Below, in pieces: positions 54,153 to 64,000 of a DNA stretch of 64,000 nucleotides (positions are counted from its first letter, which is position 1; each line of letters opens with the position of its first letter). The translations under genes were made by a program, and so were the position numbers. The stretch is from Glycocaulis abyssi (GTDB lineage: Bacteria; Pseudomonadota; Alphaproteobacteria; Caulobacterales; Maricaulaceae). A model generated the notes under the pieces. The model was given only the letters and a program-made list of their open reading frames with translations. It was not told the DNA's origin and searched no databases. Where the stretch lies: contig NZ_CP163421.1 of the NCBI RefSeq assembly GCF_041429775.1, positions 2,505,001 through 2,569,000 of the forward strand, written 5' to 3'.

Positions 54153-55453
54153 TGTACGACCCGGAGACATAGGTAACGGATTGTACCTAAGACATGGGTG
54201 ACACCCGCGTGCCGAACGGGTTGTCGATAGTCTGCAGGGTTTTCTGTTCCAGGTCGATATATCCCAGATCGTAGGTCATGAAGCTGACGAGCCAGATGCC
54301 GTCGTCGACTTCCTTGATTCCGAGTTTCTGGCCGGCGAGCACGGTTGAGATGTTGATCTTCTTGCGGTGCATGCAGATGCGCCCGCATGCGGTGACCAGA
54401 ATGTCCTTGTCGTGGAGGGGGTAGTCGATCTCCTGCAGTCCCTGCCATGGCCTTGAGGCGGGCGTGTAGAGTTCGCCCGGCGTCTTCATGGCGATGGCTT
54501 CGTGCGGGCGTTCTGTATTGAACTCGCTGACGAATGCGTCGAACCGGGCCTGCTGCTGAAGGGCGTTCATGCCCGGCGGGCGGGCAGTTTCCTGCTTCAG
54601 GGTCCGGTGCATGCGCTCGTGGCGGCCGTTCTGCTGGGGATGGCCGGGCCTGATGCGCTCGATGGCGATGCCGAGCCTGAGCCAGAGCACGGACAGCCGC
54701 GACAGGTTGTAGAGCCCGTTGGGGCTGGCGAAGGGCAGGCCGTTATCGCTTCTGATGGCGGCTGGCAGGCCGCGCTCCCTGAACACGCTCACGAAGGTCT
54801 CGATGACGGGCCGCTCCTTGGTACTCTCAAGGGCTTCGCAAACCAGGATCATGCGCGAGGCCTGGTCGGTGACGGTCAGGGGGTAACAATAGCGCCCGTC
54901 GCCCAGCTTGAACTCACCCTTGAAGTCGGCGCACCACAGATCGTTGGGCTCAAAGGCCTGCGACAGCGCCGTGCCCACGGCCTTGTTGGCCGTGCGCCGC
55001 TTGCGCGACCGGCTGACCAGGCCGTGCCGGTCAAGCACCGCATGGACGGTGCTCCTGGCCGGGATGCGCACATCACCGGCCAGCTTGCGCACCAGCAACT
55101 CGCGGATCTTCCTGGCGCCCCAGTGAGGCTTCTCGCGCTTGGCTTCCACGATCAGCCGCTCGATCTGGTCAGGCAGCTGGTTGGCGTAGCGCACCGGGCG
55201 GCGCGAGCGGTCGCACAGCGCCTCCAGACCCTCTTGCCTGTAGCGGCCCCATATCTTGTAGCCGGTCTTGCGCGAGATGCCGAACTGGCGGCAGACCTCG
55301 CTCATGCTCTCGCCATCCAGAAGACGGCCGACAAACCGAACACGCTCATCCATTACCGAACACTCCTTCCACGGCATCTCCACCTCCAGCCCAAAGCCAA
55401 AAGTGTGACCCATGTGTCCGGTACGTTCCGTCACCTATCTCTCAGGTCGCTCA
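54153..55453 (-). mobile_element. IS481-family-like insertion sequence
   Basis: About 1.3 kb with long imperfect terminal inverted repeats: the left end (CGACCCGGAGACATAGGTAA…) and the complement of the right end (CGACCTGAGAGATAGGTGAC…) match over roughly 48 bp, ending in CATGGGT(G/C)ACAC. It starts 9 bp outside attR. The exact ends and target duplication are uncertain. Confidence 0.82.
54187..55377 (-). CDS. IS481-family transposase
   Basis: About 396 aa. An N-terminal HTH ([20 protein letters not shown]) is followed by a second HTH and the rve DDE core: Asp in [11 protein letters not shown], Asp in [12 protein letters not shown], Glu in [12 protein letters not shown]. It ends with a C-terminal beta domain. 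The ATG at 55377 ([16 protein letters not shown]) is chosen over an upstream one lying in the inverted repeat. It appears intact. Confidence 0.92.
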
Positions 55454-55491: not shown

Positions 55492-56148
55492 CTAGCTCAC
55501 GGACTCGCGCTTCTCGCCGATATGGACGAGGCTCTCCACATCGATGCGTTCATCTCCGCCGCACACGCCGATGATCAGGGCTTCATCGCATCCTTCGCCC
55601 ACCAGGTAGGCATGGCCCATCGAGCTGTCGAGATAGAAGGATTCCCACTTCTCCAGCACGACCGGGTCGTAAAACTCGGTATGCACCTCCACACGGCCTT
55701 CCAGCACGAAGATGAACTCTTCCCCGCCATGGCGGATCAGCTCGCCAAACTCCTCCACCGAGCGTGCCCGCACTTTGGTGAAGATCGGGATCATGCTCTT
55801 CTTGCGCAGCTCGGTACACAGATAGAAATAGTCGTAATTGTCCGTTTCGACGCGCATGCCGGTATCCAGCGTGCCCTTGGCACGCCGCCCGGTAACCGCG
55901 CCTGCCGGCGCGCCATTGTCCGGGCTGGGGGCGCTGAACAGGTCCGATAGCGGGATATCCAGCCTCTGGCTGAGCTGCAACAGCTTGTCATAGGTCAGCG
56001 TCAGCCGGTCGTGCTCGATCTTGGACAGGGTCGAGAGCGGAATGCCCGAGCGCTGGCTCATCTCCTTCAGGGTCCAGCCATTGCGCTGGCGTATGGCGCG
56101 CACGACCTGGCCCAGCGTCGTGCTGGCTTCGGTAGCGGTGTTATTCAT
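55492..56148 (-). CDS. XRE-family regulator with C-terminal cupin domain
   Basis: 218 aa: an HTH_3 domain ([40 protein letters not shown]) then a cupin sensor domain ([31 protein letters not shown]). XRE-cupin regulators commonly control amino-acid or polyamine catabolic genes. It is divergent from the TonB receptor operon by 305 bp and is the obvious candidate to regulate it. ATG 56148 is chosen; the longer frame has no family match. Confidence 0.9.
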
Positions 56149-56325
56149 CGCACATTCCTGACTATGCCCTGACCGAAAATAGCCAAAACCGGCCCGTTCG
56201 GAAAACCACTTTCCATTCGGGACTTGGCACAGGCTAGCCGCGTTGCATGGCCGCCGCCAAGCCCACAACGCTTCCAGGCGTCACGAGCCTGCAGAACGCG
56301 GTGTTGTCCTGATCAGAAAATTTTG

Positions 56326-56354
56326 TTGACAATTCTCCTATTGGGATCGACCCT
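56326..56354 (+). promoter_or_regulatory. Possible promoter of the TonB-receptor operon
   Basis: A perfect -35 hexamer TTGACA (56326-56331) lies 17 bp before a weak -10 (GACCCT, 56349-56354). It sits about 100 bp upstream of the receptor ATG in the divergent intergenic region. The -10 match is poor, so this is tentative. Confidence 0.3.
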
Positions 56355-56453
56355 GTTCCGGATAGACCTGATCTGGTGTGCGCTTCATCCGCGATGGGGC
56401 GGGCCTGTCAGGCCGGCAACCATGAACGCAAAGTTCAGGAGGGGAGACTAACC

Positions 56454-58670
56454 ATGATCAGGAAATCGCTTCGCGCGGGGCTTCTGGGCACGGCCGCCAT
56501 GGCCATGTGCGCACCGGCACTCGCATTTGAGGACGCATCCCAGGAAGGCAGCCAGCCGGTTGCCACCTCGCAGGTGCGTGACGTCATCATCATCACCGCG
56601 CAGAAGCGCGAGGAAGCCATCACCGACATTCCGGTGTCGATCAGCGTGGTCTCTGGCGAGCGGCTGGTCAATTCCGGTGCGGGCTCGCTGGTCGATTTTG
56701 CGGCCTATGTGCCCGGCGTGAATGTCGGCAGCGGGGGCAGCCCGGGCCAGACATCGATCACCCTTCGCGGGATCGCCCCTATCGGGGCCGGGGCGACGGT
56801 CAGCACGCACATCGACAACTCGCCGCTGGGCGGCAGTTCGAACTACTCGCGCTCACCGGCCTTTGCGCTCGACCTGTTCCCCAACGATATCGAGCGGGTG
56901 GAAATCCTGCGCGGTCCGCAAGGCACGCTCTACGGCGCCAGTGCCATGGGCGGGCTGCTGCGCTATGTCACGCGCACACCCGATCCGTCCGGATTTTCCG
57001 TGCAGATGGCTGGCGAGATGTTCTCACTGGCTGATGCCAGCTCGCTGGGCTACGGCGCGCGCGGGCGGGTGAATGTGCCACTCGCTGACAATGCCGCGTT
57101 CAGCGCCAGCCTCTTCACGCGTGAAACGCCGGGTTATGTCGATAACACCTTTACCGGTGAGAACGATCAGAACGAGCTGACCCAGACCGGCGGGCGCGTT
57201 GCGCTCTTCCTTGAGCCGGCGTCCAATTTCACCATCAATCTCTCGGCGATGTTCCAGGACATCGACTCGGCCAATAACGGTCAGGTCTATCTCGACCCGG
57301 TGACGCTGGAGACGATTGATGGTCCGCGTACGACCCGCAACATCATCGCCGAGCCGTTTGCGAAGCGTGAGCGCTACTACGCCGCGCGGCTGAACTGGGA
57401 TCTCGGCTTTGCAGACTTCGCCTCGATCACCAGCTTCTCGAACACCCAGAACCGTCAGGACACGGACGCTTCACGGATTTTTGGTACCATTTTCCCGCTT
57501 CTGACGGGCGGCGCGGTGCCTGAAGGGCTGTCCGAGTTCAACCTGTTCCTCGATCTTGAGAAGTATACGCAGGAATTCCGCCTCACATCGGCTGGCGACG
57601 GCCGTTGGCAATGGCTGATCGGCGCGTTCTACACCAACGAGGAAAGCGAAAACCGGCAATTTGTGTCCGCCACCGACATGGCAGGCAACATCATTCCCGG
57701 ACTGCACCCCGCAGCCGTGGTCAGCCTTCCCTCTTCCTATGAAGAGTATGCGGTGTTCGGAAACGCCAGCTTTGATCTGACCGACCGACTGACGATCGGG
57801 TTCGGGGGGCGGCTGGCGCGTAACGAGCAGGATTTTGCGCAGATATCAGACGGTGCCCTGGTGGGCGGTGCCACCAACTTCACCGGTGAATCGTCCGAAG
57901 ACGTCTTCACCTACATGCTCAATGCAACGTTCGACCTGACCGACCAGACCATGCTCTATGGCCGGATCGCCAGCGGCTACCGGCCGGGTGGTCCCAACGT
58001 GGCTCTGCTGGGCATGCCCCCACAGGTCGATGCTGACCGGCTGGTGAACTATGAGGTCGGGGTGAAGTCCGACTTCTGGGACGGGCGTGCGCTCATCGAA
58101 GCCACAGCCTACTGGATCGAGTGGGAAGATATTCAGCTGTCCAGCGTTATCGGCGGCGTCGGCGGCCTTATCAATGGCGACACCGCCCGCAGCCGCGGCA
58201 TCGAGTTCCAGGCAGTGGTCGCACCGACCGACGGGCTTCGCCTTGGTTTCAATGCTGGTCTTACCGATGCCGAGCTGACAGCAGACGCGCCTGACCTGTC
58301 CGGCGTTGATGGCGACCGTCTGCCCGGCGTGCCCCGCTACAACTACGCGCTGACGGCGGACTATGACTGGACGTTGCAGAACGGCTGGGATGCGCGCGTT
58401 GGCGGCGGCGTCCGCTGGGTCGGAGACCGCAATGTCTCCTACCCCGCGAGCGCGACCTATATGGTGCTCGACAGCTACCACTCCGTGGATGTCAACGCGG
58501 AAGTCTCCAACGGCGCCTGGTCGCTGCGCGGTTATGTGCGCAATCTGACCGACGAGGACGTGTATGTCAGCGGCACGCGTATGACCAATGCGCTGGGCGC
58601 TCCGGTGTTCGTCATGGCTACATTGCTCCAGCCGCGTACAGTCGGCCTTGTGCTGAGTGTCAGCCGCTAG
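56454..58670 (+). CDS. TonB-dependent outer membrane receptor
   Basis: 738 aa: signal peptide (MIRKSLRAGLLGTAAMAMCA), plug domain (DVIIITAQKREEAITDIPVS, then IERVEILRGPQGTLYGASAM) and a 22-strand barrel ending in LQPRTVGLVLSVSR. The plug motif 'TAQKREE' places it among the FecA/CirA-like receptors used by sphingomonads and caulobacters for organic substrates. ATG 56454 follows AGGAGGGGAG. It heads a catabolic operon and probably imports its peptide or amino-acid substrate. Confidence 0.93.
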   Translation: MIRKSLRAGLLGTAAMAMCAPALAFEDASQEGSQPVATSQVRDVIIITAQKREEAITDIPVSISVVSGERLVNSGAGSLVDFAAYVPGVNVGSGGSPGQTSITLRGIAPIGAGATVSTHIDNSPLGGSSNYSRSPAFALDLFPNDIERVEILRGPQGTLYGASAMGGLLRYVTRTPDPSGFSVQMAGEMFSLADASSLGYGARGRVNVPLADNAAFSASLFTRETPGYVDNTFTGENDQNELTQTGGRVALFLEPASNFTINLSAMFQDIDSANNGQVYLDPVTLETIDGPRTTRNIIAEPFAKRERYYAARLNWDLGFADFASITSFSNTQNRQDTDASRIFGTIFPLLTGGAVPEGLSEFNLFLDLEKYTQEFRLTSAGDGRWQWLIGAFYTNEESENRQFVSATDMAGNIIPGLHPAAVVSLPSSYEEYAVFGNASFDLTDRLTIGFGGRLARNEQDFAQISDGALVGGATNFTGESSEDVFTYMLNATFDLTDQTMLYGRIASGYRPGGPNVALLGMPPQVDADRLVNYEVGVKSDFWDGRALIEATAYWIEWEDIQLSSVIGGVGGLINGDTARSRGIEFQAVVAPTDGLRLGFNAGLTDAELTADAPDLSGVDGDRLPGVPRYNYALTADYDWTLQNGWDARVGGGVRWVGDRNVSYPASATYMVLDSYHSVDVNAEVSNGAWSLRGYVRNLTDEDVYVSGTRMTNALGAPVFVMATLLQPRTVGLVLSVSR

Positions 58671-58692
58671 ATCCAGACGGGAAGGAAAAGTG

Positions 58693-60687
58693 ATGATGAA
58701 GAACTCGATGCGGGGCGCGCTCGCCGCGTTGCTTGCCAGCTTTGGCCTGGCGGCGGCTTCTGCCCAGGTGCCTGACCTCGACCCGCGCGAAGACGAGCAG
58801 GCCGAGCTGCCGGTATTGCCAGAACAGGAAACGGTACCGGTAGCCGCATCGGGTCTCATCGACCGGGCCGATCTGGAAAGCTGGCTGGATGGCTTCATGC
58901 CCTACGCGTTGGCCCAAGGCGACATTGCCGGTGCCGTCGTAACGGTGGTGGCAGACGGGGAAATCCTCCTGTCGCGCGGGTTTGGCTATGCGGATGTTGC
59001 AACCCGCACGCCGATTGATCCTGAAACCACGCTCTTCCGCCCCGGCTCTGTATCCAAGCTGGTCACCTGGACGGCTGTCATGCAGCTGGTCGAGAGCGGG
59101 CAGATCGATCTGGATGCCGACATCAACACCTATCTCGACTTTGAAGTGACCGGCGTTGAGCGCCCGATCACCATGCGCCATCTGCTTACCCATACACCGG
59201 GCTGGGGCGAGCAGGTGCGTGCCCTCATCATGGAAGATCCCGAGCGGTTCCAGCCGCTGGACGAATATGTCCGCAATAATATTCCGGCGGCCGTCTACCC
59301 GGCCGGCGAAATGCCTGCCTATTCCAACTATGGCACGGCGTTGGCGGGTTATGTCGTCGCGCGGGTGTCCGGGCAGAGCTTTGATGATTATGTCGACGAG
59401 CACATTCTTGCGCCGCTGGGCATGGAGTATTCTACGCTCCGCCAGCCTTTGCCCGACCATCTCGAGGGCCTGATGTCCTCGGGTTATATGCGGGCCTCTG
59501 ACGGCGAGGGGCGTGATTTCGAGATTGTGACGCCTGCCCCGGCCGGCTCCATGTCGGCCAGCGGTAATGACATGGCTCGCTTCATGATCGCCCATCTCAA
59601 TAATGGCGAAGGGCTGTTCTCGCCGGAAACGGCCGAGCTGATGTACACCAGCGAGGACCGCAAGCTGCCTGGCGTCAACGCGATGCTGCTTGGCTTCTAC
59701 CAGCAGAACCGCAACGGCCACCGTATTATCGGTCATGGCGGGGATACGACCCTCTTCCACTCCAATCTTCACCTCTATCTCGATCATGGCGTCGGGCTGT
59801 ACATCTCGATGAACAGCACAGGACGGGGCGGGGCTACGGGGCGTATCCGGCAGGCGCTCTTCGAGCAGTTCACCGACCGTTACTTCCCGGTGGAGCTGGA
59901 AGAGCTGCCGACGCTGGAAACGGCCGAGGAACATGGCCGGATGCTGGTCGGCAACTACGTGATTTCGCGCCGCGCCCACCAGAACTTCGTGGCGGCAACG
60001 GCTTTGCTCAGCCAGCCCAGCGTGACCATGAATGATGACCATGAAATCAGCCTGTCTATCCTCACCGACGCGTCGGGCACACCACTGCGTTTCCGCGAGG
60101 TGGAGCCCTTCGTCTGGCAGCAGGTGAACGGGGTCGAGCGCCTGTCCGCCCGCCTGAACGATAATGGCGAGGTGGAGATGTTCTCCGCCGCCTTCTTCTC
60201 GCCCTTCATGATGTTCACGCCGGTGGAGTGGTGGCGCAACGGGACGTTACTGATGCCGCTGGCGGGCATTGCGGCCGGGGCGCTGCTTCTTACCGTGCTC
60301 TTCTGGCCGGTACGCGCGATTGTGCGCTGGCGGTTCAAGAAGCCCTTCGCGCTCTCCGGACGTCAGGCGATGGCTTATCGCCTGTCCAATCTCGGTGCGC
60401 TGCTGCCTCTGTTACACGCGGGCGGCTGGCTCTGGCTTGTCACGCACATGATGTCGGAACTCAGCCGCCTTGATGGCCGCATGGACGGCATGATCGTTCT
60501 CATGCAGTTCCTGTCGGTCCTGCCGGTTGCGGCTCTGCTCATCGCCCTGTGGAACACGTTCATTGTGTGGAGCGGCGGCGCGAGCTGGTTTGCCAAGCTC
60601 TGGAGCCTCGTGCTGGTCCTATCCACGCTGGTGATGATCTGGTTCCTGGCCGCCGGCGGATTCTTCAGTTTCGGTCTGACCTACTAG
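58693..60687 (+). CDS. Periplasmic serine hydrolase, beta-lactamase/S12 family, with membrane tail
   Basis: 664 aa: signal peptide (MRGALAALLASFGLAAASAQ), S12/class C domain with the catalytic SVSK (FRPGSVSKLVTWT), YSN (PAYSNYGTALAGY) and HGG in place of KTG (IIGHGGDTTLFH), then three or more C-terminal membrane helices (residues ~520-660). Such enzymes act as D-aminopeptidases, DD-peptidases or esterases. In this operon a peptidase releasing D-amino acids or dipeptides is plausible. GTG 58690 is an alternative start. Confidence 0.88.
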   Translation: MMKNSMRGALAALLASFGLAAASAQVPDLDPREDEQAELPVLPEQETVPVAASGLIDRADLESWLDGFMPYALAQGDIAGAVVTVVADGEILLSRGFGYADVATRTPIDPETTLFRPGSVSKLVTWTAVMQLVESGQIDLDADINTYLDFEVTGVERPITMRHLLTHTPGWGEQVRALIMEDPERFQPLDEYVRNNIPAAVYPAGEMPAYSNYGTALAGYVVARVSGQSFDDYVDEHILAPLGMEYSTLRQPLPDHLEGLMSSGYMRASDGEGRDFEIVTPAPAGSMSASGNDMARFMIAHLNNGEGLFSPETAELMYTSEDRKLPGVNAMLLGFYQQNRNGHRIIGHGGDTTLFHSNLHLYLDHGVGLYISMNSTGRGGATGRIRQALFEQFTDRYFPVELEELPTLETAEEHGRMLVGNYVISRRAHQNFVAATALLSQPSVTMNDDHEISLSILTDASGTPLRFREVEPFVWQQVNGVERLSARLNDNGEVEMFSAAFFSPFMMFTPVEWWRNGTLLMPLAGIAAGALLLTVLFWPVRAIVRWRFKKPFALSGRQAMAYRLSNLGALLPLLHAGGWLWLVTHMMSELSRLDGRMDGMIVLMQFLSVLPVAALLIALWNTFIVWSGGASWFAKLWSLVLVLSTLVMIWFLAAGGFFSFGLTY

Positions 60688-60704
60688 GAAGGGGCGCATC
60701 AAGC

Positions 60705-61721
60705 ATGTCTGCAACAACTGCGCTTTCCCTGTCGGTCCGCGTTGAGCCGGTTCGCCTGAAAACACCGTTCCGGATTACCGGACACGTGATGGACAAGGTT
60801 GATCTGGTGGTGTGCACCGTGTCCCGCCGCGGCCTAACGGGCCGGGGCGAGGCCACCGGGGTCTATTATCACGCCGAGACGGGAGCCAGCATGCTGGCTC
60901 AGATCGAGGCGGTACGCGGACAGATCGAGGCGGGGGTCACGCGTGAGGCGCTGCAGGACCTACTGCCGCCCGGCGGTGCCCGCAACGCTGTGGACTGTGC
61001 CTTGTGGGATCTGGAAGCGCGCGAGACGGGAAAGCCGGCCTGGCAACTGGCCGGTCTGGCGAAAACCTCGCCTCTGCTCACCACCTTCACGCTGGGCGCT
61101 GACAGCCCGGAGGCGATGGGCATCAAGGCGGCGGGGCTGACATACGCAAAGGCGCTCAAGCTCAAGCTGATCGGGGATGGTCAGGATGCAGAGCGTGTGC
61201 GGGCCGTGCGCGCCGCTGCGCCTGAAGTCTGGATCGGGGTGGACGCCAATCAGGCGTTTGACCGGGCCGGTACCGAAGCGCTTCTGCCCTGCCTGATCGA
61301 CGAGAAGGTGAGCCTTCTGGAGCAGCCCTGTGCCATCGGCGCGGATGAAACGCTGGCAGGGCTGAACTCGCCCATTCCGCTGGCGGCTGACGAGAGCGCG
61401 CAGACCAGCGCCGATATCGCCCGGCTCGTGCCCATCTACGACATTATCAATATCAAGCTCGACAAGTCTGGCGGTCTCACCGAAGGGCTGAAAATGGCGT
61501 ATCTGGCGCGCGAGCATGGCCTTGGCGTGATGGTAGGCAATATGGTCGGGACCTCGCTCTCATGCGGGCCAGCGGCCATAGTCGGCCAGCTATGCGATGT
61601 AGTGGACCTTGATGGTCCCTGGCATCTGTCCGCCGACCGCGATCCGCCTGCGCGTTATGAAAACGGCCATCTTGTATGCCCGCCTGAAGGGTGGGGTCTG
61701 CCGGAAAGGAAAGCGGCCTGA
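60705..61721 (+). CDS. dgcA: Enolase-superfamily epimerase (DgcA/dipeptide epimerase type)
   Basis: 338 aa with the muconate-lactonizing-enzyme fold. The general-base Lys lies in KALKLKLIGDG; metal ligands are in VDANQAF, LLEQPC and AADESAQT; the second Lys is in INIKLDKSGGLTEG. This pattern is shared by L-Ala-D/L-Glu epimerases and by DgcA, the N-acetyl-D-glutamate racemase. Being fused in an operon with a DgcN-type DUF1611 gene favours the DgcA role. The ATG follows AGGAAGGGG; the stop overlaps the next start by 1 bp. Confidence 0.85.
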   Translation: MSATTALSLSVRVEPVRLKTPFRITGHVMDKVDLVVCTVSRRGLTGRGEATGVYYHAETGASMLAQIEAVRGQIEAGVTREALQDLLPPGGARNAVDCALWDLEARETGKPAWQLAGLAKTSPLLTTFTLGADSPEAMGIKAAGLTYAKALKLKLIGDGQDAERVRAVRAAAPEVWIGVDANQAFDRAGTEALLPCLIDEKVSLLEQPCAIGADETLAGLNSPIPLAADESAQTSADIARLVPIYDIINIKLDKSGGLTEGLKMAYLAREHGLGVMVGNMVGTSLSCGPAAIVGQLCDVVDLDGPWHLSADRDPPARYENGHLVCPPEGWGLPERKAA

Positions 61722-62761
61722 TGAGTGTTCTCTCCCTTCCCCGCCCCTACCTGCTCTTTCTGGGCGATGTCACGGACCTGTCCTACGCCAAGACGGCAGC
61801 GGGTCTGCGCGACTGGGTGCCGGATCAGTGTGTGGCCGAATGGTCCTTGCCGGGAAACCCCTTACGGCTTGGTCTTCCGGTCATGGCACCGGCAGAGGCG
61901 GCTCGCGCAGGTGCCCGCTCGCTGGTGATCGGCGCGGCGACAATGGGCGGGGCGATCCGCCCGGCCTGGGTGCCAGCGCTGGTCGAAGCCATGGAAGCCG
62001 GTCTCGACATTATTTCCGGCATGCACGCCCCGCTGGCCGGCGTTCCGGAGCTGAAGGAAGCGGCCGCGCGCCTGGGCCGTCAGCTGATCGATGTCCGGCG
62101 CCCGCCCGCCGGCTTGCCGCTCGGCACGGGCCGCAAGCGCACCGGCAAGCGCCTGCTGACCGTCGGGACAGACTGCGCGCTGGGCAAGAAATACACCGCG
62201 CTGGCCCTCACCCAGGCGTTCACGCGCGCCGGAGCCAGGGCAACCTTCCGCGCCACCGGCCAGACCGGTATTCTCATCGCGGGCGGCGGCGTGCCGATGG
62301 ACGCGGTGGTCAGTGACTTTCTGGCCGGGGCCGCCGAGGCTTTGTCACCCGATGCGCCAGCCGATCACTGGGATATTGTCGAAGGGCAGGGCTCGCTCTT
62401 TCATCCCTCCTATGCCGGTGTATCGCTGGGTCTCCTGCATGGCAGCCAGCCCGATGTGCTGGTGATCTGCCACGAGTTCGGCCGTAAACGGATTATCGGT
62501 ATCGACGCCCACTATCCCATCCCCTCCATTGAGGAGGTGATCGAGCTCAACCTGATGCATGCGCGCCGGGTAAATCCCGATGTGCGCGTCGGCGGGATCA
62601 GCCTCAATACCTCGAAACTCTCCGAGGACGAGGCGCGCCGCGCCATCGAGACGGAGGCGCGGCGCACGGGCCTTCCCTGCGCCGATCCGATCCGCGGCGG
62701 CGCAGCCTTCGACCGGCTTGTCGAGGCTTGCCTGGAACCCGAAGCAGCCCTCGCCCAATGA
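61721..62761 (+). CDS. dgcN: DUF1611 protein, DgcN-like D-glutamate N-acetyltransferase
   Basis: 346 aa of the DUF1611 family: an N-terminal Rossmann-like domain and a C-terminal P-loop-like domain (LLTVGTDCALGKKYTALALT, TGQTGILIAGGG, VEGQGSLFHPSYAGVSLGLL). Characterised members named DgcN acetylate D-glutamate, which DgcA then racemises to N-acetyl-L-glutamate. The adjacent epimerase supports the same two-step pathway. TGATG and ATGA overlaps couple it to both neighbours. Confidence 0.82.
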   Translation: MSVLSLPRPYLLFLGDVTDLSYAKTAAGLRDWVPDQCVAEWSLPGNPLRLGLPVMAPAEAARAGARSLVIGAATMGGAIRPAWVPALVEAMEAGLDIISGMHAPLAGVPELKEAAARLGRQLIDVRRPPAGLPLGTGRKRTGKRLLTVGTDCALGKKYTALALTQAFTRAGARATFRATGQTGILIAGGGVPMDAVVSDFLAGAAEALSPDAPADHWDIVEGQGSLFHPSYAGVSLGLLHGSQPDVLVICHEFGRKRIIGIDAHYPIPSIEEVIELNLMHARRVNPDVRVGGISLNTSKLSEDEARRAIETEARRTGLPCADPIRGGAAFDRLVEACLEPEAALAQ

Positions 62762-63855
62762 GCGTGAGCCCCAGCCTCTTTCAGCGCCTGATCCTGCCCG
62801 GCCTTGCCTTCAAGGCGGTGGTGATTGGCGGGGGCTATGCCACGGGGCGTGAGCTGGTGGAGTATTTCATGCCATCCGGCCCGGTGGGCGGATTGCTGGG
62901 GCTGGCGCTGGTCACGGCACTGTGGAGCGGTATCTGCGCGCTGACCTTCGTCTTCGCGCACGCTACGCGCAGCGGCAATTATCTCGCCTTCTTCCAGGCG
63001 TTGCTCGGGCCCTTCTGGCCGCTTTTCGAGATTGCCTATCTGCTCTTCCTCTTCCTGATCCTCGCCGTGTTCGGCGCGGCAGCAGGCGAGATCGGGGCGG
63101 CGCTTTTCGGCCTGCCTAACCTGGTGGGTTCGGCGGCGCTCGCGCTCTCCATCCTCCTCTTTGCCGCTCTTGGCCAGGAGAGCGTGGAGCGGCTTTTCAA
63201 ATACGCCTCGCTCTTCCTCTATCTGGTCTATCTCGTCTTCGTGGTGATGTGCTTCACGCAATTTGGCGGGGATATCCTCGCAGGGCTTGATGCCGGTATT
63301 CCGGCGACGGGCTGGGTGTCGGGCGGTGTCACCTATGCGGGCTATAACGTGGTCGGCGCGGTGGTGATCCTGCCCATGCTGCGACATCTGACTAGCCGCA
63401 AGGACGCAATTATTGCCGGCGCGCTTGCCGGACCTTTGGCCGCGCTTCCCGCGCTTCTCTTCTTCGCCTGCATGATCGCTTTCTACCCGGAGATTTCAGG
63501 CGCGGCCCTGCCTTCAAACTATATCCTCGAACGCCTCGGCTCGCCGGTCTTCCAGATGGCGTTCCAGTTCATGGTGTTTGTGGCCCTGGTGGAAACCAGC
63601 GTCAGTGCAGTCCATGCCGTCAATGAACGGATATCGGCTGTGCGGCCCCGCGCCATCGGGATACGCACCCGTCTTGCGGTCACCTCCGTCATACTGCTCG
63701 CGGCCATGGTGGTCGCAGACCGGTTCGGCCTGATCGCCCTGATTGCCAACGGCTACCGCATGTTGGCGTTCGCGATCATCGCCGTCTTCGTCCTGCCGCT
63801 CCTGACACTCGGCGTCTGGAAGCTGATGCGTATGCGCAAGGAGGCCGGCGCATGA
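62758..63855 (+). CDS. YkvI-like inner-membrane transporter
   Basis: A 365-aa protein with about ten hydrophobic helices, starting MSVSPSLFQRLILPGLAFKA and with the conserved GGGYATGRELVEYFMP. It resembles the YkvI family, distant relatives of LeuT-fold amino-acid transporters. It is translationally coupled to dgcN, so it probably takes the periplasmic product of the S12 hydrolase into the cytoplasm. The substrate is inferred only from context. Confidence 0.8.
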   Translation: MSVSPSLFQRLILPGLAFKAVVIGGGYATGRELVEYFMPSGPVGGLLGLALVTALWSGICALTFVFAHATRSGNYLAFFQALLGPFWPLFEIAYLLFLFLILAVFGAAAGEIGAALFGLPNLVGSAALALSILLFAALGQESVERLFKYASLFLYLVYLVFVVMCFTQFGGDILAGLDAGIPATGWVSGGVTYAGYNVVGAVVILPMLRHLTSRKDAIIAGALAGPLAALPALLFFACMIAFYPEISGAALPSNYILERLGSPVFQMAFQFMVFVALVETSVSAVHAVNERISAVRPRAIGIRTRLAVTSVILLAAMVVADRFGLIALIANGYRMLAFAIIAVFVLPLLTLGVWKLMRMRKEAGA

Positions 63856-64000
63856 GACATGTCCTGATAGCTGCCGTGCTGGGCACCGCCCTCTGCACGG
63901 GGCCGCAGACCGGTGTCAGCCATGCCGCCTTGCTGGAAGAGAGCGAAACCGCCGCGATAGAGGCGCGCATTGCCGCGCTGGCGCAGATCGCGGGCGGGCG
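63852..64000 (+). CDS. Start of an exported protein (cut by window edge)
   Basis: The ATG overlaps the transporter stop (ATGA). About 49 codons are visible: a signal peptide (MRHVLIAAVLGTALCTG, cleavage near SHA-A) and an acidic, helical mature start (LLEESETAAIEARIAALAQ). It is probably another periplasmic enzyme of the same operon; the family cannot be told. Confidence 0.7.
   Translation, partial: MRHVLIAAVLGTALCTGPQTGVSHAALLEESETAAIEARIAALAQIAGG

Follow-up and report, generated by a model that had tools for sequence, protein, structure and literature searches.

A conserved operon of Glycocaulis abyssi with a type 2 racemase of the DgcA lineage, possibly involved in the catabolism of peptides with D-residues

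A stretch of 64,000 nucleotides from the Glycocaulis abyssi genome (assembly GCF_041429775.1, contig NZ_CP163421.1, positions 2,505,001 to 2,569,000; hereafter referred to as the window) ends in an operon that encodes, one after the other, a TonB-dependent outer-membrane receptor, an S12 serine peptidase, a racemase of the enolase superfamily, a DgcN-like DUF1611 protein, an inner-membrane permease and a class A beta-lactamase-like serine hydrolase, next to a divergent regulator gene (Table 1). The host genome has a size of 3.05 Mb and a completeness rating of 100%. The operon is real and conserved, and its racemase belongs to a class that differs from the DgcA-like enzymes in its capping loops. 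The start codons of the operon genes were picked by us to suit the overlaps and the leader sequences. The S12 and racemase genes are separated by 17 bp, the racemase stop and the DUF1611 start codon share 1 bp (TGATG at 61721), and the DUF1611 stop codon overlaps the permease start by 4 bp (ATGA at 62758-62761). Another 4-bp overlap (ATGA) connects the permease to the class A-like gene, the seventh gene, which starts at 63852 and continues beyond the window edge; the operon is therefore longer than an earlier note on the window could see. An antisense open reading frame (ORF) of 547 amino acids at the position of the seventh gene was discarded as a shadow ORF. The components named in that note were recovered, with Plug and TonB barrel domains in the receptor, a Beta-lactamase family domain in the S12 hydrolase, N and C domains in both the MR/MLE racemase and the DUF1611 protein, helix-turn-helix (HTH) and cupin domains in the divergent XRE-cupin regulator and a polytopic membrane protein as the inner-membrane component, and so were the 1- to 4-bp overlaps of the distal genes. 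Its gene order, however, has to be corrected to receptor, S12, racemase, DUF1611 and permease, the latter being fifth and not third.

Table 1. Features of the operon and its regulatory region (positions in the window)
Feature	Positions	Strand	Basis
XRE-type HTH and cupin regulator (218 aa), divergent	55492-56148	-	Pfam HTH_3/HTH_19 above cut-off, Cupin_2 just below
Conserved promoter/operator-like block with GTTGACAATTCTCCTAT	56307-56351		Alignment of five genomes of the genus, window included
TonB-dependent outer-membrane receptor (738 aa)	56454-58670	+	Pfam Plug and TonB barrel
S12 serine peptidase (664 aa)	58693-60687	+	Pfam PF00144
Type 2 N-acyl-amino-acid racemase/dipeptide epimerase, enolase superfamily (338 aa)	60705-61721	+	MR_MLE N and C domains
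DgcN-like DUF1611 protein (346 aa), putative N-acyltransferase for D-amino acids	61721-62761	+	Pfam DUF1611, DUF1611_N
Inner-membrane permease (365 aa), APC/LeuT fold	62758-63855	+	Predicted structure; no Pfam family
Class A beta-lactamase-like serine hydrolase (331 aa)	63852-64847 (window holds 63852-64000 only)	+	NCBIfam bla_class_A

A DgcN match was found in 17 of 61 genomes, the G. abyssi genome being counted. The gene order is identical in four of the five congeners examined (G001, G002, G003 and G005), and G008, from the same family, has the same order, extended by one more S12 gene and by an M19 gene. A rearranged version of the operon, accompanied by a DUF819 protein, was observed in G033. 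This recurrence indicates that the arrangement is not due to chance. The remaining congener, G004, contains instead a type 1 pair (the types are defined below) with a receptor and a different D-aminoacylase. The operons of G001, G005 and G033 include another kind of receptor, 26 to 30% identical to that of the window; despite this swap, the remaining operon genes of G001 and G005 are 80 to 95% identical to those of the window. The regulator is kept at the same place in G001, G002, G003, G005 and G008, with identities of 75 to 87%. Just past the regulator gene, the window harbors an IS481-family transposase gene (54187-55434).

To place the racemase, loci were sampled by racemase similarity (80 loci), around DgcN within the taxonomic class (20 loci) and, again around DgcN, in the window genome and related ones (18 loci). 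The resulting alignment contained 110 racemases, including Escherichia coli YcjG, the residue numbers of which are used here; six racemases were left out because their frame was too short (G021, L057, L058, L076, L105 and L121). Sorting by the capping loops resulted in 54 type 1 (DgcA/AEE-like) and 40 type 2 enzymes and in 15 that belonged to neither (type 3). L076, read later, is of type 2 and is included where 41 loci are given; L105 is also of type 2 and enters no count, and G021, L057, L058 and L121 were given no class. Among the residues that helped to define the classes, R21, R or K at position 24 and R50 are present in 54/54 type 1 and in 0/40 type 2 enzymes, the latter having F (31), M (5), W (3) or L (1) at position 24 and Y (37) or F (3) at position 50. 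The window racemase has Gly, Met and Tyr at these three positions. Columns that were not used for sorting split the types in the same way: E179, A86 and C275 are found in all 54 type 1 and in none of the 40 type 2 enzymes (Q in 39, G in 40 and N in 37, respectively), and P47 in all 54 versus a single one (G in 39). In total, 22 of 331 columns separate the two types at the thresholds that we chose, including P47G, Y48V, A86G, E179Q, C223A, C275N and A293C. K149, K151, D176, E202, D225, K247, D297 and D299 are identical in all 109 racemases, and the window enzyme has the KxK motif, the D/E/D metal ligands and the second lysine of the enolase superfamily (K152, K154, D180, E206, D229 and K251 in its own numbering). 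The type 3 enzymes, which stand outside the contrast between types 1 and 2, resemble type 2 in having Tyr or Phe at position 50 (15/15) and mostly Gly47 and Gln179; Arg21 is retained in 9 of these 15 rows.

In a tree calculated without the loop columns, 36 of the 40 type 2 enzymes, that of the window among them, form one clade (SH-aLRT 99, by a quick method), whereas the other four (L042, which equals G033, L109, L114 and L147) fall among the type 3 rows. The NCBIfam DgcA model (NF042940, cut-off 400) recognized all five type 1 enzymes tested (474 to 505 bits) and none of five type 2 relatives (318 to 365 bits), and the window racemase, with 367.8 bits, also stays below. It shares with E. coli YcjG the two catalytic lysines, the metal ligands and the DxD near strand 8, but lacks R21, R24 and R50 and reaches 240.0 bits with the L-Ala-D/L-Glu epimerase (AEE) model NF011708, for which the cut-off is 343. 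R24 is a residue with a role in binding the Glu side chain. In alignments with Protein Data Bank entries, the more distant 3jva and 3q45, presumably enzymes for non-acidic dipeptides, carry Leu where YcjG has R21 and Ile or Leu where it has R24. None of the residue names that we looked for in PMC3605383 matched.

The two types also differ in the genes that surround them. Partners were counted as tblastn matches of at least 80 bits in the loci sampled, with at least 35% identity and 50% coverage being required in addition for S12. The counts are not independent of one another, as the rows are related, locus lengths are unequal and the type 1 hosts come in many cases from other orders. Relatives of the XRE-cupin regulator were present in 32/41 type 2 versus 0/54 type 1 loci, S12 in 34/41 versus 0/54, the window-type permease in 21/41 versus 0/54, the POT peptide symporter in 19/41 versus 0/54, the M19 dipeptidase in 10/41 versus 0/54 and the class A-like gene in 6/41 versus 0/54 (POT and M19 were assigned by Pfam). 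Kin of the receptor was detected in 31/41 versus 1/54, by queries that find only relatives of the two operon receptors; L039 and L046, both of type 1, contain TonB receptors of another kind. The D-aminoacylase was found in 16/41 versus 5/54 and DgcN in 26/41 versus 38/54 loci. A looser first clustering, which joined the DUF819 gene to the POT genes, was not the source of these counts. DgcN is present in 20 of the 21 type 2 loci that have the permease, L090 being the exception, while POT is present in the absence of both permease and DgcN in eight type 2 loci, some of which come from short contigs. In five loci from genomes with no DgcN match (L085, L090, L091, L093 and L102) the type 2 racemase gene adjoins a POT gene. 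The pairing of permease with DgcN and the occurrence beside POT where DgcN is missing would both fit a single racemase that handles N-acyl amino acids as well as dipeptides, and the linkage to POT and M19 points to peptides. TonB receptors are also found in the DgcN-DgcA locus L033 of the same order, as they are in L039 and L046, and these three and L044 contain D-aminoacylase-type amidohydrolases.

The S12 protein consists of a signal-like N terminus, the S12 domain, a beta domain and C-terminal membrane helices, as judged from its hydrophobic segments. The SxxK, YSN (YxN) and HxG motifs (S119, K122, Y210, N212, H348 and G350) are invariant over 23 homologs. The predicted structure (predicted local distance difference test [pLDDT] score of 87.2) gave the highest Z scores with an archaeal penicillin-binding protein (PBP) homologue (2qmi; Z 40.0, 336 residues) and an esterase (7spn; Z 39.0, 413 residues). 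The Paenibacillus DL-peptidase Lip3 (PDB 9sn1; Z 37.9, 441 of 664 residues, span 54-663, 21% identity) came next and had the longest alignment among the 50 matches listed; a D-amino acid amidase, the R61 DD-peptidase, full-length ClbP and many beta-lactamases are close behind in the ranking. The S12 domain and the C-terminal membrane part align with Lip3, the one DL-peptidase entry compared, in a single match; the window gene differs in that it is located in a predicted catabolic operon with a racemase and a permease. PMC13188892 reports that Lip3 cuts DL-amide bonds of syringafactin, and lipopeptide-destroying D- and DL-peptidases are described in PMC8127968 and PMC13188892. On the basis of its architecture and context, the S12 protein may act as a D-peptidase. 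More than one S12-like gene (two or three) was seen in several type 2 loci, G008 has a tandem pair of S12 genes (L035:4221-8267), and a short stretch of the window genome that is 77% identical to the S12 gene (G000:C1:1990221-1990360) is perhaps part of a second one.

A LeuT/APC fold was predicted for the permease (pLDDT 85.6); by Z score (27.5 to 30.6), the model is nearest to YcsG (an integrative model), LAT2 and BasC, whereas Foldseek E-values place Nramp metal transporters, which have the same fold, first. The modeled fold does not tell the substrate. The name YkvI-like, given to this protein in the earlier note, finds no support in Pfam or NCBIfam, where no family matched; no YkvI model or sequence was compared. 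The class A-like protein scores 236.7 bits with bla_class_A (NF033103, cut-off 200) and contains STFK, SDN and KTG, with Thr at the position of Glu166. Proteins of this kind were found in six type 2 loci, three of them from Stenotrophomonas (L082, L088 and L096) and three from the family of the window organism (L029, L032 and L035), the gene of the window operon being L029:10853-11848. By eye, comparing the DR(D/N)T stretch with the class A motif, Thr occupies the Glu166 position in 6/6, so that ordinary beta-lactam hydrolysis is unlikely, and a role of the seventh gene as a beta-lactamase was discarded despite the passing score. Three of the six proteins were seen to contain KTG, and the two proteins scanned both pass the family cut-off. 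All six have extra residues ahead of the DPRDT-like stretch, and their link to the operon extends over Alpha- and Gammaproteobacteria.

The 45-bp block upstream of the receptor gene is conserved in the genus and matches at no second place within the window. In the genome, one copy of its core was found when up to three mismatches were allowed, the same number as for a reversed control. At the same threshold, the core was found somewhere in 15/41 type 2 and 0/54 type 1 loci; in L079, L080 and L109 no regulator gene adjoins the site. The block includes a TTGACA -35-like element, so that promoter likeness explains part of its recurrence. A search of the intergenic region for a palindromic operator retrieved only a weak repeat of 9 bp, which lies outside this block. 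The regulator may bind this block, and the operon is probably inducible.

The pool of D-amino acids in sea water and soil turns over slowly, and peptide antibiotics are protected by their D-residues. Our leading interpretation, which we hold tentatively, is that the operon serves to break down and use peptides that contain non-acidic D-residues, nonribosomal lipopeptides being possible candidates. The receptor would take an oligopeptide across the outer membrane, and the membrane-anchored S12 enzyme, with its DL-peptidase-like build, would cleave it at D-residues in the periplasm. The class A-like hydrolase and a D-aminoacylase-family enzyme encoded outside the operon may help to trim the pieces. 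The freed D-amino acid would be imported by the APC-fold permease; in many relatives the POT symporter may import di- and tripeptides instead of or besides this route. The DgcN-like protein would then acylate the amino group of the D-amino acid, and the type 2 racemase would convert the N-acyl amino acid, or the D-residue of a dipeptide, to the L form by inversion at the alpha carbon, presumably prior to a final deacylation. Compared with D-glutamate, a neutral, hydrophobic or aromatic D-residue is the likelier one. A precedent for such steps is the N-succinylamino acid racemase pathway, which combines an acyltransferase, a racemase and a deacylase. The proposed route shares with it the irreversible D-to-L logic via an N-acyl intermediate, but has a putative acyltransferase of the DUF1611 family, and no linked deacylase for the L product was recognized. 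According to the review PMC5808125, a Thermotoga relative of YcjG favors Phe, Tyr and His.

Several observations weigh against this interpretation. The contrasts at R21, R/K24 and R50 are partly circular, since these residues helped to define the classes. YcjG itself, according to the same review, is broad on L-Ala-Xaa and narrow on Xaa-L-Glu dipeptides, with L-Ala-D/L-Glu as its likely natural substrate; as it has the Arg loops, such loops need not enforce Glu. The linkage contrasts are confounded by ancestry and taxon, because the rows are related and the partner queries come mostly from type 2 loci. The looser clustering gives S12 in 37/41 type 2 versus 3/54 type 1 loci, and the type 1 loci L033, L039 and L046, from the same family or order, also have receptors of other kinds and D-aminoacylases. 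On the tree, the permease-DgcN link is reduced to five well-supported independent pairs, for which the sign test is not significant. The S12 matches of similar or higher Z include the archaeal PBP homologue, the esterase and beta-lactamases. Furthermore, few type-specific changes distinguish the DgcN-like proteins of the two locus types, and the neighboring D-aminoacylase matches the N-acyl-D-glutamate deacylase 3gip first, with D-aminoacylase close behind. ArgJ (TIGR00120) has no match in the window genome, so that a release of N-acetyl-L-glutamate by this enzyme has no support.

The earlier note had described a scavenging operon that provides a full route to N-acetyl-L-glutamate, in which D-glutamate from peptidoglycan peptides would be imported, acetylated by DgcN and racemized by DgcA. 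Our interpretation retains the scavenging of D-amino acids or peptides, the DgcN-like protein and a racemase from the DgcA lineage; D-glutamate as the residue has become doubtful, and we regard this version as unlikely. In its favor, the nearest curated families are DgcA and DgcN, a pair of N-acetyltransferase and N-acetyl-D-Glu racemase reported for D-Glu in PMC10845958 and PMC12363236. The homologous genes are adjacent here as well. However, the window proteins are below both equivalog cut-offs, the DUF1611 protein, with its DUF1611_N and P-loop DUF1611_C domains, reaching 450.8 bits with the DgcN model (NF041892, cut-off 480), so that with AEE three curated cut-offs are missed. The basic capping-loop residues are absent, and the racemase gene precedes the DUF1611 gene, whereas the reverse order was observed in 19/19 class loci having both (20 examined). 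The window operon also adds the receptor, S12 peptidase, permease and XRE-cupin regulator. Moreover, in 8 of the 15 type 2 genomes without linked DgcN, some being metagenome assemblies and completeness not being given, there is no DgcN match at all.

The neighboring amidohydrolase speaks for D-glutamate: this convergent D-aminoacylase-family gene, about 1.6 kb beyond the window end (L029:12557-14113), encodes a protein with a hydrophobic N terminus that scores 685 bits with NF006560 (cut-off 340), a model whose older name was D-glutamate deacylase. Together with the small differences among the DgcN-like proteins, this match keeps D-glutamate under consideration. The enzyme was rejected as a general DgcN partner, as NF006560 is above cut-off in 8 of 289 class genomes and beside DgcN only in the window genome; in G187, a match of 173 bits, below the cut-off and with one stop codon read through, is divergent from DgcN. 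Genes for an ATP-grasp protein and a C26 gamma-glutamyl hydrolase follow (L029:14137-16239), a pair also found in G002 and G005. Glutamate racemase MurI (TIGR00067) has no match in the window genome or in the six genomes of the genus and is absent from 21 of 37 family genomes (hand count, an 18.9-bit match in G033 being taken as absent and a 63-bit part in G036 as present). A source of D-Glu for the cell wall was not found in the window genome, where the mur cluster was read by ORFs only and MurL was not searched for. A locus that makes D-Glu in place of the missing racemase was nevertheless rejected, as MurI and DgcN show no useful association in the family or the class: 12 of 24 family genomes without DgcN also lack MurI, and MurI above 100 bits was found in 17/72 class genomes with full-length DgcN versus 66/217 others (hand count).

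An epimerase acting on unrelated dipeptides, named in the earlier note as the case against its own proposal, is a live possibility. In another explanation, the racemase would be purely a dipeptide epimerase (L-Xaa-D-Xaa) for muropeptide or D-peptide recycling, and the DUF1611 protein would have a function other than the acylation of its substrate. The linkage to POT and M19 in relatives, the type 2 genomes without DgcN and the retention of D297 and D299, which we assume to bind the dipeptide amino group, agree with this explanation, but no POT or M19 gene was found in 20 kb around the window operon, which couples a permease with a DgcN-like protein; we consider it rather improbable. That the locus is mainly a resistance island, in which antibiotics of the D-peptide or beta-lactam kind are destroyed by the S12 and class A-like enzymes and their fragments are salvaged by the other proteins, appears highly improbable in view of the Thr at the Glu166 position, even though the S12 architecture resembles Lip3 and ClbP, the class A-like gene recurs in six type 2 loci and PMC12516957 describes lipopeptide breakdown with release of amino acids by S. 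maltophilia.

Returning to the catabolism of peptides with non-acidic D-residues, the same paper describes an inducible breakdown of iturin, fengycin and surfactin, for which it leaves the enzymes open. The whole gene set is present in three Stenotrophomonas loci (L082, L088 and L096), and our literature searches retrieved no description of it. A wider proposal, possible but doubtful, is that a system widely shared by Alpha-, Beta- and Gammaproteobacteria feeds on nonribosomal lipopeptides and other peptides with hydrophobic D-residues, and that its one retooled racemase serves both POT-imported dipeptides and free D-amino acids that are taken up by the permease and acylated by a DgcN-like enzyme. 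The operon genes are candidates for the Stenotrophomonas lipopeptide breakdown. If the favored interpretation is true, a second class of the DgcA lineage, linked to a DL-peptidase-like enzyme, a receptor and a peptide symporter, would be part of a complete, testable route for the use of non-acidic D-residues, and the automatic D-glutamate labels on such genes may mislead.

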